Of a stretch of 64,000 bases of DNA, positions 2,808 through 10,164 are shown piece after piece. The stretch covers positions 62,001 to 126,000 of the forward strand of contig NZ_JAKZLA010000005.1 of assembly GCF_022808775.1 (NCBI RefSeq), in the 5' to 3' direction. The notes under the pieces were generated by a model. That model did not search any database and had not been told where the DNA came from. It was given only the letters and a program-made list of their open reading frames with translations. The position numbers and the translations under genes were made by a program. This DNA is from Geothrix terrae. GTDB lineage: Bacteria > Acidobacteriota > Holophagae > Holophagales > Holophagaceae. Numbering within the stretch: the stretch's first letter is position 1; each line of letters opens with the position of its first letter.

Positions 2808-4598
2808 TCAGGAATCCTCGTCGGGCTCGGGCAGCGGAGGCAGGGTGAGGCGCTGGTAGGCCGCCCGGGCCTCCGCATCGCCAGCCTCCATACCCTTCCG
2901 GTACCAGGAGAGCGCCTGGTCGATGTCCCTTGCGCCGCCCAGTCCCTGCTCCAGGTAGTTTCCGAGCTTTCCCATGGCGGCCGCGTTCCCGCCTCCGGCG
3001 GCCTCAGCGAAGGCGTGCCGGGCCTTTTCCAGGTCCTTTGGAACCGTGCCTTCGCCCGACTCGTAGATCAGGCCCGCATTCCACCAGCTGGTGGCACTGC
3101 CCTTGGCACCGGCCTTGAGATACCATCCGAGGGCCATCTCCGGAGCCCTGGGCACGACCAGGCCCTGGGCGTAAAACCAGCCGAGCTGATTCATGGACGC
3201 CCCGTTCCCCAGGTCTGCGGCCGCCTGGTAGCACCTCATGGCCTCGGTGAGGTTCACCGGCACACCCTCGCCGTTCTGATGGGCCCAGCCGACCTGATGC
3301 AGGGCGGTCACATTGCCCAAGTCCGCCGCCTTGCGGAAATAGTCCAGCGACTTGCCGAGATCCCTGTCCGCCCACCCCTCGGACTTGTAGCAGAAACCCA
3401 GCTGCACCCAGGCCTGCACCCAGCCCCGCTCCCCAGCCCGCTGATAGTGGCCGATGGCCGCCTGGAGGTCCTCGGGCCCGCCCCACCCATGCTCCGCGAA
3501 CCACCCCAGGAGGTAGATCGACCGCGCGGACCCCTGCTTGGCCCCTTGCCTCAGCCAGGTGAGGGCCCGCCGGTCATCCTGGCCGACGCCCTGGCCCTTG
3601 TGGTAGAGCCAGGCGAGCTGGGGGAACGCCCCGACGTATTCAAGCCCGGCGGCCTTCGCGTACCAGGAGACGGCTTCCGAGTAGTCCGCCGCCACCCCGA
3701 TGCCGTATTCGTAGCACTCCCCCAGCCATCCCATGGCCTGGGGAGAGCCCATCCGTGCGGCCTGCCTGCAGAGCAGGACGGCGCGTTCAGGGTCCTTGGG
3801 AACACCCTGGCCCCGGATGAGCATCCCGGCCAGCATGACCAGGGCCGAGGGATCCTCGAGTCCCTGGGCCTGCGTGAGCCAGGAGAGGGCTCCCGTCGGG
3901 TCCCTGGGCACGCCGATGCCGTCGAGGAGGAACCGCCCCATGAGCCGCGGCCCATCGGCGTAGCCCGCCTCGGCGGCTTGCTTGGCGAACCGGAGCGCCG
4001 CTGCGGCGTCCTTGGGGAACCCCAGGCCCCGCTCATGCATCCAGGCGAGCGTCATGGGGTAGAAGCGCGGCTGGGGCTGGCTCGCGGCCCGGCTGAACCA
4101 GGCCTTGGCGGCCGAGGGGTCCCAGTCGACGCCGGTCCCGCCATCGAAGCACTGCCCCAGCTCCGCCATGGCATCCGGAGATCCCTTCTCCGCCGCCTGC
4201 CGGAGCAGCCTGGCGTACTGGACATGATCCACCGGCACGCCGAAGCCGTTCTGATGGAGTTCCGCCAGGTGGTAGAGACCCCGGGCATTGCCTTTGGCCG
4301 CGCTGGCCTTCAGCCATTTCAGGGCCTCAGCAGAATCCCTGGGGATGCCTTCACCCCGGAAGTGCATGCGTCCGAGATGGGCCATGGCCTCGGCATCGCC
4401 GGCCTCGGCCGCCGCCCGGTAGCAGGCCGCCGCCCTAATCCGATCGCGCGGACAGCCCTCCGAACCGAGCCAGCGGCGATGCCCCTCGGCCAGCAGGCCG
4501 CCTTCGAGGCCGGGGGCGCCCGGTGCCTGGGCGAACGCCATCGCGGCAGGCATGAGCAGCCACGGAAGGAGGGTGGGCCTGAGGATCGAGGGGCGCAT
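2808..4598 (-). CDS. Exported Sel1-repeat protein (14 repeats)
   Basis: A 596-residue protein with a signal peptide (MRPSILRPTLLPWLLMPAAMAFAQA, cut likely after the last A) and then an almost uninterrupted solenoid of about fourteen 36-residue Sel1-like repeats, each of the form A-x-x-x-LG-x-x-Y-x-x-G-x-GVP-x-D-x-x-x-A-x-x-W-x-x-x-AA-x-x-G. The repeats start near residue 70 and end near 585, followed by a short acidic tail. Sel1 solenoids act as protein-protein scaffolds in the periplasm or cell envelope; the partner is unknown. The start at 4598 was chosen because it gives the signal peptide; an in-frame ATG 57 codons upstream would bury it. Divergent from arcC. Confidence 0.88.
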   Translation of the reverse strand: MRPSILRPTLLPWLLMPAAMAFAQAPGAPGLEGGLLAEGHRRWLGSEGCPRDRIRAAACYRAAAEAGDAEAMAHLGRMHFRGEGIPRDSAEALKWLKASAAKGNARGLYHLAELHQNGFGVPVDHVQYARLLRQAAEKGSPDAMAELGQCFDGGTGVDWDPSAAKAWFSRAASQPQPRFYPMTLAWMHERGLGFPKDAAAALRFAKQAAEAGYADGPRLMGRFLLDGIGVPRDPTGALSWLTQAQGLEDPSALVMLAGMLIRGQGVPKDPERAVLLCRQAARMGSPQAMGWLGECYEYGIGVAADYSEAVSWYAKAAGLEYVGAFPQLAWLYHKGQGVGQDDRRALTWLRQGAKQGSARSIYLLGWFAEHGWGGPEDLQAAIGHYQRAGERGWVQAWVQLGFCYKSEGWADRDLGKSLDYFRKAADLGNVTALHQVGWAHQNGEGVPVNLTEAMRCYQAAADLGNGASMNQLGWFYAQGLVVPRAPEMALGWYLKAGAKGSATSWWNAGLIYESGEGTVPKDLEKARHAFAEAAGGGNAAAMGKLGNYLEQGLGGARDIDQALSWYRKGMEAGDAEARAAYQRLTLPPLPEPDEDS

Positions 4599-6900: not shown

Positions 6901-7866
6901 CTACTTCGGCGCCGGCGCTGCCTTGGCGGCTTCCACCGCCTGCCGGGCCCGGGTCCGTTCCGCGTCGCTGGGGGTGCCCCAGACGGCCCGGCTGGGCTTC
7001 TGCTTCAACAGTTGCAGCAATTCCTCCGCGGAATCCAGGGAACGCCGCAGCGCCTTGAGGCTGGCCTCCAGCTCCGGCTGGTCCTCGGCCCGGAACCGGG
7101 CCAGCAGCGTATCCGACTGTTGCAGCACCGACGCCAGGCTCACGAGGATCCGATCCAAGTCCGGCGCGCGCGTTTCGAGGAGGGTCCGGGTCACCGCCAG
7201 GCTCTTCTCCAGGTCGACCAGGGCCTTGTCGGCCTCTCCCATGCTTCGGTCCGCATGGGCGGCCAGTCCACGACCCTCCCGGGCCAGGGCCTGGAACTCG
7301 CGCAGGGTGGCGTCCATCGATCGCAGGGCCCGGGCCACGGAAGGATGCTCCAGCAGGTCGCCCAGACCCTTCGTCTGGATGCGATCGCGCACCGCGTCCA
7401 GGGAGGCGTTCAGGTTGGCCAGGAGACGGTCCGCCCGCTCCAGTACGCCCCCCAGGGAGACCCCCTCCTCGCCCGGGAGCTGGTCGCCCGCGGCCAGGGG
7501 CACCGTGCGGGTGTCAGATGGCGGCAGCCGCAGGTCCAGCATCACGCTGCCCACACCCTTGGGGGCCACCACGGCCCGGGTGCCGCGCCACAGCTGGATG
7601 TCCGAACGCACGGCCAGGGTGGCCAGGAAATGGTAGTCCGTGCCCTCGCGCCGCATGTCCACCCGTTCCACGGATCCCACGCGATAGCCCTTCAGCTGGA
7701 CATCCGTGCCGGGCGCCACCCCCTCCATCTGGTCCAGGCGCACCACCAGCGGATAGGTCTTCTCGGTCACGACCGCGGCGTTCTTGTAGGCCAGGAGACC
7801 CCCGAAGAAACCCAGCGCCAGGAGGACGAAGAGGCCCAGGCGGGCGTCCTGCTTCTCGAAGTTCAT
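6901..7866 (-). CDS. mlaD: MlaD-like MCE-domain lipid transport protein
   Basis: A 321-residue inner-membrane-anchored MCE protein: one N-terminal transmembrane helix (LGLFVLLALGFFGGLLAYK, about residues 10-28), the MCE domain from about 35 to 120 (YPLVVRLDQMEGVAPGTDVQLKGYRVGSV is the signature), then a long helical region with heptad-like leucines to ~290 and a basic tail. MCE proteins form hexameric rings that pass phospholipids between the inner and outer membranes, powered by an MlaFE ABC core. It starts at 7866, overlapping the ATPase-like gene by four bases (ATGA). The long helical region suggests an extended, PqiB/YebT- or LetB-like or Mce-like tube rather than the short E. coli MlaD. 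Confidence 0.88.
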   Translation of the reverse strand: MNFEKQDARLGLFVLLALGFFGGLLAYKNAAVVTEKTYPLVVRLDQMEGVAPGTDVQLKGYRVGSVERVDMRREGTDYHFLATLAVRSDIQLWRGTRAVVAPKGVGSVMLDLRLPPSDTRTVPLAAGDQLPGEEGVSLGGVLERADRLLANLNASLDAVRDRIQTKGLGDLLEHPSVARALRSMDATLREFQALAREGRGLAAHADRSMGEADKALVDLEKSLAVTRTLLETRAPDLDRILVSLASVLQQSDTLLARFRAEDQPELEASLKALRRSLDSAEELLQLLKQKPSRAVWGTPSDAERTRARQAVEAAKAAPAPK

Positions 7867-8528
7867 GACGGCTCCGAAGGCGAGTGGGGCGCGTGGAGGT
7901 CCAGCGTCTGGAACTCCGGCCCCGGAGGCAGGTCCCTCCCCTCCATGGCCAGGAGGAGGGTGCGGCCGGAATCCAGCGCCCAGCCCGAGATGAGGCCGAG
8001 GGCCAGGTCGCGGTCGGTGGCGTCCAGTCCCTCCAGGGGCCCGTCCAGGAGGATCAGCTCCGGGTCCAGGGCCAGCACCCGGGCCAGGTTGGCATGCTTC
8101 CGTGCCGCCGCGCTCACCGCATGGGGGCGGAGGTCCGCCACGGACTCCAGCCCGAGTCGCGCCAGGGCCTCCCCAACCCTGCGGGCGACCTCCGCCCTGG
8201 GGAGCCCCAGGAACCTCAGCGGGAGGGCCACGTTGTCCACCAGGCTGAGGTTGGACAGGAGCCCGCCGGCAGGGAAGGCGAACCCCATGCGCACCCTTCC
8301 CGCCAGCCCGAGGGCGCCCTCTCCCGGCCAGACGGGGATGCCCGCGATCTTCACCTCGCCGGCCCTGGGACGCTCCGTGCCGGCGAGCACCTTCAGCAGG
8401 TGGCCCCTTCCCGTGCCCACGGCGCCCGCCAGCAGGAGGTTCCGACCCCGCGGAAGGTCCAGATCCATCCCCTCCACCAGAGGCCGGCCATCGGGGAGAT
8501 CGTAGGCGAGGCCGCGGACCTGGAGCAT
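7863..8528 (-). CDS. Degenerate MlaF-like ABC ATPase (catalytic motifs lost)
   Basis: A 221-residue ABC nucleotide-binding-domain protein in the position of MlaF, between mlaE (TGATG, one-base overlap) and mlaD (ATGA overlap). The fold is recognisable from start to end, but the working motifs are not: the Walker A position (35-42) reads GAVGTGRG instead of GxxGxGK(S/T); the Q-loop region (~84-90) reads AFPAGGL with no Gln; the LSGGQ signature (~138-142) reads VSAAA; Walker B is followed by LLDGP (161-164) with Gly in place of the catalytic Glu; and the switch His region reads LLAMEGRD with no His. The reading frame is intact with normal codon use, so it looks like a maintained pseudo-ATPase. 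It may bind nucleotide weakly or act only structurally; an active partner ATPase could lie elsewhere. Confidence 0.8.
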   Translation of the reverse strand: MLQVRGLAYDLPDGRPLVEGMDLDLPRGRNLLLAGAVGTGRGHLLKVLAGTERPRAGEVKIAGIPVWPGEGALGLAGRVRMGFAFPAGGLLSNLSLVDNVALPLRFLGLPRAEVARRVGEALARLGLESVADLRPHAVSAAARKHANLARVLALDPELILLDGPLEGLDATDRDLALGLISGWALDSGRTLLLAMEGRDLPPGPEFQTLDLHAPHSPSEPS

Positions 8529-9316
8529 CAGAAGTAGAAGCATGCGGCCAGAAGGCCGTCGATGACGAACACCGCCACCAGGGCGGAGACCACCGTCCTC
8601 GTGACGGCTTGGGGGACCTCGGTCTGGCTGCGCTGGACGCGGAGGCCGAAGTGGCATGCGTGGAAGGTGATGGCGCCCGAGAAGAAGAAGACCTTCAGCA
8701 GGGTGGCCGTGAAATCCAGATTCGACAGCGCCTGTCGCACTGAGCCCATGAAGAAGCCCCAGGTGATGCCGTATTTCAAGCGCGCCACCAGGAAGCCACC
8801 GCCCAGGGCCGCCGCATCGAAGCACACCACCAGTGCGAAGACGGCCACGAGCACGCCCGCCCAGCGGGGCAGGAGCAGGTAGCGGTAGGGGTCCACCCCG
8901 TGGGCCGCGAGCGCATCGACCTCTCCGTTGAGCTGCATGGTTCCCAGCTCCGCCGCGATGGCCGTGGCGCTCCGGCCGATGACCAGCACAGCGGTCAGCA
9001 GCGGGCCCAGCTCCCTCAGGATGATGAGCACCATGAGGGTGCCGATGTAGTTCTCCGCGCCCAGGCCGGAGAGCTGGCTGAACGCCTGGATGAGCGTCAC
9101 CGCGCCCAGCAGCAGGGCCGTGCCCACCACGAGCGCCCCGGCGTCGAGGCCCGTGAAGCGGATCTGGAGCTTCGTCTGCCCGCCCACCACCGCCAGCTGG
9201 CCGGATCGGAGCGCCAGCCCGGAACGCAGGGTCCGCCACACCAGGTGTGCCTGGTCGCCCAGGAACTCCAGGAAGCCGCGCACTGGCGCGCCAATCCGCG
9301 CTAGGAAAGCCATCAT
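8528..9316 (-). CDS. mlaE: MlaE-like lipid ABC transporter permease
   Basis: A 262-residue integral membrane permease of the MlaE/Mce family (5-6 predicted helices), the inner-membrane core of the lipid transporter that hands phospholipids to the MCE protein. Conserved blocks include VLIILRELGPLLTAVLVIGRSATAIAAELGTM and the following N-G-E-V-D-A-L, G-V-D-P-Y-R-Y-L-L-L-PR, all family signatures. Two ATGs (9316, 9313) are adjacent; the first is used here, with a weak GGGTGA upstream. The EQ-helix-like region that normally contacts MlaF is present, although the neighbouring ATPase is degenerate. Confidence 0.92.
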   Translation of the reverse strand: MMAFLARIGAPVRGFLEFLGDQAHLVWRTLRSGLALRSGQLAVVGGQTKLQIRFTGLDAGALVVGTALLLGAVTLIQAFSQLSGLGAENYIGTLMVLIILRELGPLLTAVLVIGRSATAIAAELGTMQLNGEVDALAAHGVDPYRYLLLPRWAGVLVAVFALVVCFDAAALGGGFLVARLKYGITWGFFMGSVRQALSNLDFTATLLKVFFFSGAITFHACHFGLRVQRSQTEVPQAVTRTVVSALVAVFVIDGLLAACFYF

Positions 9317-9354: not shown

Positions 9355-10164
9355 TCAGGGCTGAGCCGCGCCACCCCGGCTGAGGCGCGGCCTCCCCGCC
9401 TCCAGGCTGAGGGTCGCCTGGTAGCCGAGGTAGAGGTGGGTCTCCCGGTCGCCCGACAGGTTCCGGCCCGCGCTGATCAGGACGTGGTCCCGCTCCGACA
9501 GGTTGAGGATGGCCCCGATGTTGAATCCGGAGGAGGCCACCCCATCCTGCGTGGCCGCCGAGCGCTGGAACAGTTCTCCGCCCAGGGTGATCCGCGCCGA
9601 CAGATCCCGCTGGAGGAGCCACCCGAGGTAGTGCCAGTTGCGCTGGCCTTCCCCTGGATTCCGCCACCAGCCGTACCCGCCGTAGCTGGTCCAGGGGCCC
9701 CAGCTCTTCTGGAGCCACAGCGGGAGGTACACCTGGGTGTGCCCTGCGCCGAGGCCCCGTTCCGCGGCCCCCGTCGGAACCTCCACCAGCGGGAAGACGC
9801 CCACCTGCGGAAGGACCTCGGTTTCGCGCAGAAGGCGGATCTTGAGCCCGACCTCCGTATCGCCGTAGCCCCGCGTCACGGGCTCACCCGCGGGCTTGGC
9901 GTAGGCGAGGGGCGCCACGAGGTGGAACTGCGTTTCCGGCAGGATGCCGGCGTTGAACTCCACCAGAGGCAGGCTGCCCGACGCGCCACCGGGCGCCCGG
10001 AGTCCCATCCAGCTCAGGTAGAGCTCCATGTGGTGGTGCTCCACCGGCTCCGGATCATCCGTGAAGAAGGGCGGCCCCGCCTTCAGGCAGGTCCCCAGGA
10101 GCCCGGCCACAACCAGCGCCCGCCACCGTCCGGCCCGCGAAAGGAGGGTTCCAGCCTGCCCCAT
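9355..10164 (-). CDS. Outer-membrane beta-barrel, transporter-like (MetA-pathway of phenol degradation type)
   Basis: A 269-residue exported protein with a signal-peptide-like N-terminus (RWRALVVAGLLGTCLKA) and a pattern of alternating hydrophobic/polar strands with many aromatic girdle residues, as in small outer-membrane barrels. The opening PPFFTDDPEPVEHHHMELYL and the phrases LPLVEFNAGILPETQFHLV and GYGDTEVGLKIRLL are typical of the protein family often labelled transporter or MetA-pathway-of-phenol-degradation-like; no substrate is established. It lies between the CAP gene and the mla genes on the same strand with short gaps (10 and 38 bases), so it may share their transcript. Confidence 0.65.
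   Translation of the reverse strand: MGQAGTLLSRAGRWRALVVAGLLGTCLKAGPPFFTDDPEPVEHHHMELYLSWMGLRAPGGASGSLPLVEFNAGILPETQFHLVAPLAYAKPAGEPVTRGYGDTEVGLKIRLLRETEVLPQVGVFPLVEVPTGAAERGLGAGHTQVYLPLWLQKSWGPWTSYGGYGWWRNPGEGQRNWHYLGWLLQRDLSARITLGGELFQRSAATQDGVASSGFNIGAILNLSERDHVLISAGRNLSGDRETHLYLGYQATLSLEAGRPRLSRGGAAQP

Follow-up and report, generated by a model that had tools for sequence, protein, structure and literature searches.

The window analysed here, a stretch of 64,000 nucleotides from a 3.4-Mb Geothrix genome (G000:C10:62001-126000), contains an MlaEFD-type operon whose MlaF possesses none of the five features of an active MlaF (Walker A Lys, Q-loop Gln, LSGG signature, catalytic Glu and switch His; 0/5). 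On balance, we lean towards the view that this protein is a dedicated, catalytically dead MlaF with a structural role, part of a lipid conduit of MlaE and MCE protein that draws no power from its own NBD. This reading is founded on the dead MlaF being kept together with a permease and an MCE partner, and on its being conserved at the presumed contact with the permease and free to vary at the ATP contacts.

The operon and the motifs of its MlaF

The operon lies on the minus strand and unites an MlaE permease, an NBD and an MCE protein, encoded in the order mlaE, mlaF, mlaD. All three genes overlap, the mlaE stop with the mlaF start at 8528 and the mlaF stop with the mlaD start at 7863-7866. Its putative lipid cargo would be phospholipid. 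The features referred to in the following are:

8528..9316 (-): mlaE-type permease, first gene of the operon, 262 aa, RSxTA clade (PF02405 202 bits, cut-off 22.5; clade support in trees)
7863..8528 (-): pseudo-ATPase mlaF, 221 aa, overlapping both neighbours (translation, Pfam, AlphaFold2 pLDDT 92)
6901..7866 (-): mlaD-type MCE gene, 321 aa (PF02470 41.7 bits, cut-off 25.1)
8403..8426 (-): degenerate Walker A GAVGTGRG, residues 35-42, canonical GxxGxGK[S/T] (translation; GRG shared only with G004 and G013)
8262..8285 (-): Q-loop without Gln, GFAFPAGG, residues 82-89 (translation; Gln missing in 54/54 Holophagaceae orthologues)
8211..8267 (-): stretch GGLLSNLSLVDNVALPLRF after the Q-loop, where conservation in the pseudo-MlaF family is highest and where the coupling helix of MlaE is presumed to dock (alignment, column conservation; docking from general knowledge)
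8103..8117 (-): lost signature VSAAA, residues 138-142, canonical LSGG[QM] (translation; SGG missing in 85/85 family members)
8037..8051 (-): Walker B end LLDGP, residues 160-164, Asp kept, catalytic Glu replaced by Gly (translation, alignment)
7938..7961 (-): switch (H-loop) region TLLLAMEG, residues 190-197, without His (translation; His missing in 85/85 family members)

Re-reading the translation bears out the sequence-only reading, which had described Walker A, Q-loop, signature, catalytic Glu and switch His as degenerate within an open frame overlapping mlaE and mlaD at its two ends; the retained Walker B Asp was not on its list. Pfam still assigns ABC_tran (PF00005) to the protein with 56.3 bits (cut-off 25), and the NCBIfam MlaF equivalog PRK11831 yields 74.5 bits, far below its cut-off of 441. 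Furthermore, the alignment reveals that the C-terminal extension of MlaF is missing (221 versus 263 amino acids). Judged by these defining features of its sequence, the protein is a member of the ABC NBD fold family and not an active MlaF, and we would not expect it to hydrolyse ATP.

The AlphaFold2 model of the window's MlaF reaches a mean pLDDT of 92, as does that of a fully degenerate orthologue from another genus. Foldseek matches both models to LolD, FtsE, YbbA and MlaF, with E values of 6e-17 to LolD and 3.5e-16 to MlaF for the window's protein, and the nearest solved chains by sequence are Acinetobacter-type MlaF proteins. These single-chain models are compatible with an ABC ATPase fold, if short of proof of it.

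As to the partner proteins, the mlaE product is 97% identical to its counterparts in Geothrix paludis SG195 and Geothrix sp. SG200 and scores 157.5 bits against the subfamily profile TIGR00056 (NCBIfam), under the cut-off of 212 bits. The mlaD product consists of an N-terminal membrane helix, one MCE domain and a long C-terminal part. Directly upstream of mlaE (window 9355-10164, minus strand) a protein without Pfam match is encoded, perhaps an outer-membrane beta-barrel; this gene is not conserved beside mlaE in other genera.

With MlaFEDB and minimal MlaEFD of E. coli, Acinetobacter and Veillonella the operon shares the mlaE-mlaF-mlaD set, the MlaE and MCE domains and the ABC fold, and with minimal MlaEFD systems, which exist without MlaA and MlaC, also the long MlaD (PMC10665443). 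In contrast to these systems, the window's MlaF is devoid of the catalytic residues and the C-terminal extension, and its MlaE falls into a separate clade, with RSxTA where canonical MlaEs carry GRxGS. Searches of an open-access library turned up no description of a degenerate or inactive MlaF.

Motif losses in Holophagaceae and in the MlaE clade

The operon was followed through 77 genomes of the family, reading the mlaF which adjoins each mlaE. Among the 54 Holophagaceae orthologues compared, one of which ends at a contig edge, Q-loop Gln, SGG and switch His are each absent throughout (0/54) and the catalytic Glu is present in eight (8/54). All have open frames, and no frame break occurs among the 54. 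The Walker A Lys is kept in 38/54, most Geothrix being among them (GxSGSGKS). Besides the window's genome, GRG occurs in its two closest relatives, G013 and G004, the contigs of which correspond to those of G. paludis SG195 and Geothrix sp. SG200; further losses of this Lys affect G038 of the same genus (GRS) as well as other Holophagaceae genera. Since Lys survives in 38 orthologues and the other three motifs in none, the alignment points to an early loss of Gln, signature and His, with the Walker A Lys disappearing afterwards on at least two occasions.

The expectation that the window's substitutions are conserved in orthologues thus holds for Gln, SGG and His family-wide, but not for the Lys, whose loss is recent and limited to the trio and some others. 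Canonical motifs in orthologues, which the sequence-only reading had regarded as speaking for recent decay or sequencing error, present a mixed picture, only Walker A and, in a few, Glu being canonical. Sequencing error and strain-specific decay are ruled out, as the same residues recur in independent genomes and the loss is family-wide.

Scanning GTDB genome contigs with the MlaE alignment uncovered relatives labelled Deltaproteobacteria, Geobacter, Geomonas, Gemmatimonadetes, Latescibacterota, Zixiibacteriota, Brevinematales and Spirochaetia. Wherever the neighbour is readable, mlaE is followed by an mlaF without SGG and His and then by an MCE gene, the E-F-D order being preserved across phyla. 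In the 85 aligned family members SGG and switch His are missing without exception (0/85 each), Gln is present in 9/85, Glu in 13/85, Walker A Lys in 55/85 and Walker B Asp in 71/85; 25/85, including the window's MlaF, possess none of the five motifs. Together with three further proteins from loci where mlaF is absent or not in view, the MlaEs of these members group in one clade (support 100/100) which excludes canonical MlaEs, even those of the same genomes, and they carry RSGTA or RSATA at the GRxGS site. As the degenerate group constitutes one side of a 100/100-supported branch both in the MlaE and in the MlaF tree, permease and pseudo-ATPase have travelled together. A formal one-clade test rejected a single clade; it omitted the three members with mlaF out of view or absent, which forced an unnatural split, so that the rejection is no evidence against one clade.

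A wider search in the phyla of three such genomes retrieved a close relative in 20/298, 35/297 and 90/247 of the genomes sampled, and most mlaFs read were degenerate; the tree of this sample was computed by a fast method, its supports being those of likelihood tests only. A sub-branch, obtained mainly via the spirochaete search, retains Walker A together with Gln, Glu and a signature of the form LSxG, and in nine of the rows used also His. Since LSxGQ is known from working ABC ATPases, these near-intact MlaFs may be active. The assumption that the whole MlaE clade possesses dead ATPases is ruled out by this wider sampling. What emerges is a series which leads from near-intact (spirochaetes, LSxGQ) via partly degenerate (Brevinematales) to heavily degenerate proteins (Deltaproteobacteria-labelled MAGs, most Geothrix) and ends with the loss of all motifs in most Geobacteraceae and Gemmatimonadota read, in several Holophagaceae and in the window's gene.

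Several loci deviate from this gene arrangement. In L188, L264, L265 and L268 the clade mlaE stands alone, neither mlaF nor mlaD adjoining it, with the same fructose-bisphosphatase-like frame downstream; L192 (Turneriella), L311, L312 and L313, all from the spirochaete search, likewise possess an orphan mlaE without adjacent mlaF. In such genomes mlaF could sit elsewhere. The pseudo-mlaF of L232 (Geobacteraceae; about 2199-2880 in mlaE direction) is frameshifted and that of its close relative L230 is open, suggesting that the gene can be lost. In L161, mlaE and pseudo-mlaF are separated by an additional gene (3266-4208) whose product is predicted to be exported. A gene for a lipoprotein with TPR-like repeats directly follows mlaD in L162, L163, L166, L168, L174, L184-L187 (e.g. 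L185:4751-5726), L172 (4951-5773), L173 and L181, all of them Deltaproteobacteria-labelled or Brevinematales; none was seen in Holophagaceae. A conserved fourth gene as a possible energy source common to all loci was not found, this lipoprotein being present in some phyla only.

Conservation and selection

Weighted column conservation reveals that the catalytic columns (Lys, Ser/Thr, Gln, both signature Gly, Glu and His), which rank 1-48 in intact MlaFs, fall to ranks 97-208 in the pseudo-MlaF family; the glycines of Walker A and the Asp of Walker B drop less. Some residues of the pseudo-MlaF alignment remain invariant across phyla, and of its six best conserved columns four (Asn, Asn, Pro and Tyr/Phe) lie within GGLLSNLSLVDNVALPLRF of the window. 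In ABC transporters the region after the Q-loop helps to form the groove which accommodates the coupling helix of the permease. The MlaEs of the degenerate clade retain intact family motifs and a conserved coupling-helix region. In E. coli a coupling helix of MlaE located between TM2 and TM3 touches MlaF (PMC7790496). The post-Q-loop region of the pseudo-MlaF is presumed to dock on MlaE.

For the trio without Walker A Lys, pairwise Nei-Gojobori estimates from the three genomes yield an omega of 0.29-0.30 for pseudo-mlaF (bootstrap 95% limits 0.16-0.53), compared to 0.07-0.10 (mlaE), 0.15-0.17 (mlaD) and 0.10-0.15 (intact mlaF from the second Mla operon). The gene evolves about three times faster than that of its permease. 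Given an omega of about 0.3 with limits well below 1, purifying selection, as the sequence-only reading had anticipated, acts on pseudo-mlaF, clearly more weakly than on the neighbouring genes.

Proposed role of the pseudo-ATPase

If the dead MlaF is a structural subunit, two copies of it would sit beneath an MlaE dimer and, together with this permease and a ring of the long MlaD/MCE protein, would hold together an inter-membrane lipid conduit. The NBD would no longer be a motor, and lipids would move down their own gradient or with another partner as the driving force. The complex, its passive or otherwise powered transport and its lipid cargo are conjectural. MCE-based lipid transport with an inner-membrane component devoid of an ATPase domain is known from Pqi and Let (PqiAB, LetAB; PMC12436622). 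There, however, the inner-membrane part is PqiA or LetA instead of MlaE plus a pseudo-NBD, and each MCE protein contains several MCE domains. Weighing against the structural role, Walker A and the Asp of Walker B persist in the majority of Geothrix orthologues, and outside the trio ATP may therefore still be bound. The absence of a common energy-supplying partner among the loci, the roughly threefold faster evolution relative to the permease and the frameshifted copy in L232 likewise speak against it.

The sequence-only reading had also considered a pairing with an active MlaF from another locus. As it had suggested looking for, an intact MlaF does exist in the genome: a second mlaE at C1:443434 is accompanied by an mlaF at G000:C1:444263 whose product displays GGSGTGKT, FQ, LSGGM, DEP and THD. 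All five motifs are likewise present in 32/32 comparison MlaFs of this class, made up of the family's second systems, that of the window's genome included, and outgroup families. The pseudo-MlaF might accordingly form an asymmetric ATPase with the intact MlaF, or the latter alone might serve this MlaE. A borrowed motor would be in line with the finding that 16/18 clade-bearing genomes outside Holophagaceae possess a further MlaE, an intact MlaF accompanying it in most of those read. Known asymmetric ABC pairs, however, keep one consensus site: in TAP, TM287/288 and CFTR an NBD with degenerate motifs is likewise retained for structure or regulation and one ATP site is degenerate, but one consensus composite site persists, which a homodimer of the window's MlaF would not have. 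Nor would a mixed pair, by motif logic, contain any intact composite site, since in the pseudo-subunit the ATP-site residues are gone on the Walker side as well as on the signature side. The C-terminal extension with which E. coli MlaF wraps the neighbouring MlaF (PMC7790496) is missing, too. For these reasons we do not favour such a mixed dimer. Moreover, the mlaE clade accompanying the pseudo-MlaF is separate from the canonical one, and G452 and G454, two perhaps incomplete genomes, show the degenerate system only. Mycobacteria offer a precedent for an active ATPase encoded elsewhere and shared between Mce systems, MceG, and their Mce1 and Mce4 systems resemble the window's operon in combining MlaE-like permeases with MCE proteins; the shared active ATPase is where they differ. 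Mce1 and Mce4 rely on MceG (PMC9947336). Taken together, we regard a heteromer or a borrowed motor as unlikely, and a structural subunit of a system powered in another way fits better than pairing with an intact MlaF.

That the subunit acts as a regulatory nucleotide sensor or brake, binding ATP in most relatives and gating MlaE without hydrolysis, would agree with Walker A Lys and Walker B Asp being frequently retained. Yet the 25 family members without any of the five motifs, the window's protein included, make nucleotide binding unlikely as a common role, and we consider this explanation rather improbable. Slow decay of a functionless gene on its way out would accommodate the faster evolution of pseudo-mlaF compared to its neighbours, the disappearance of Lys from Walker A at a later stage in several lineages and the frameshifted Geobacteraceae copy. 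It is opposed by the low omega, by the open frames in all Holophagaceae orthologues, by the preserved overlaps and by the residues invariant across phyla, and strikes us as very improbable.

Beyond the structural role proposed for the window's protein, we tentatively suggest, with less than even confidence, that a multi-phylum MlaE-type branch may have turned ATP-independent in a stepwise manner, its ATPase becoming a pure assembly subunit, missing at the locus in some lineages, and the MCE bridge carrying lipids passively or with another source of power. It is a matter of debate which force brings lipids to the outer membrane and whether this takes ATP in Mla-type machines. The series from near-intact to dead ATPases on one permease clade represents a natural test set which would separate the structural role of MlaF from its role as a motor and provides a way to ask whether MCE bridges can work without ATP. 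An mlaEFD operon alone is hence no proof of an ATP-driven transporter.
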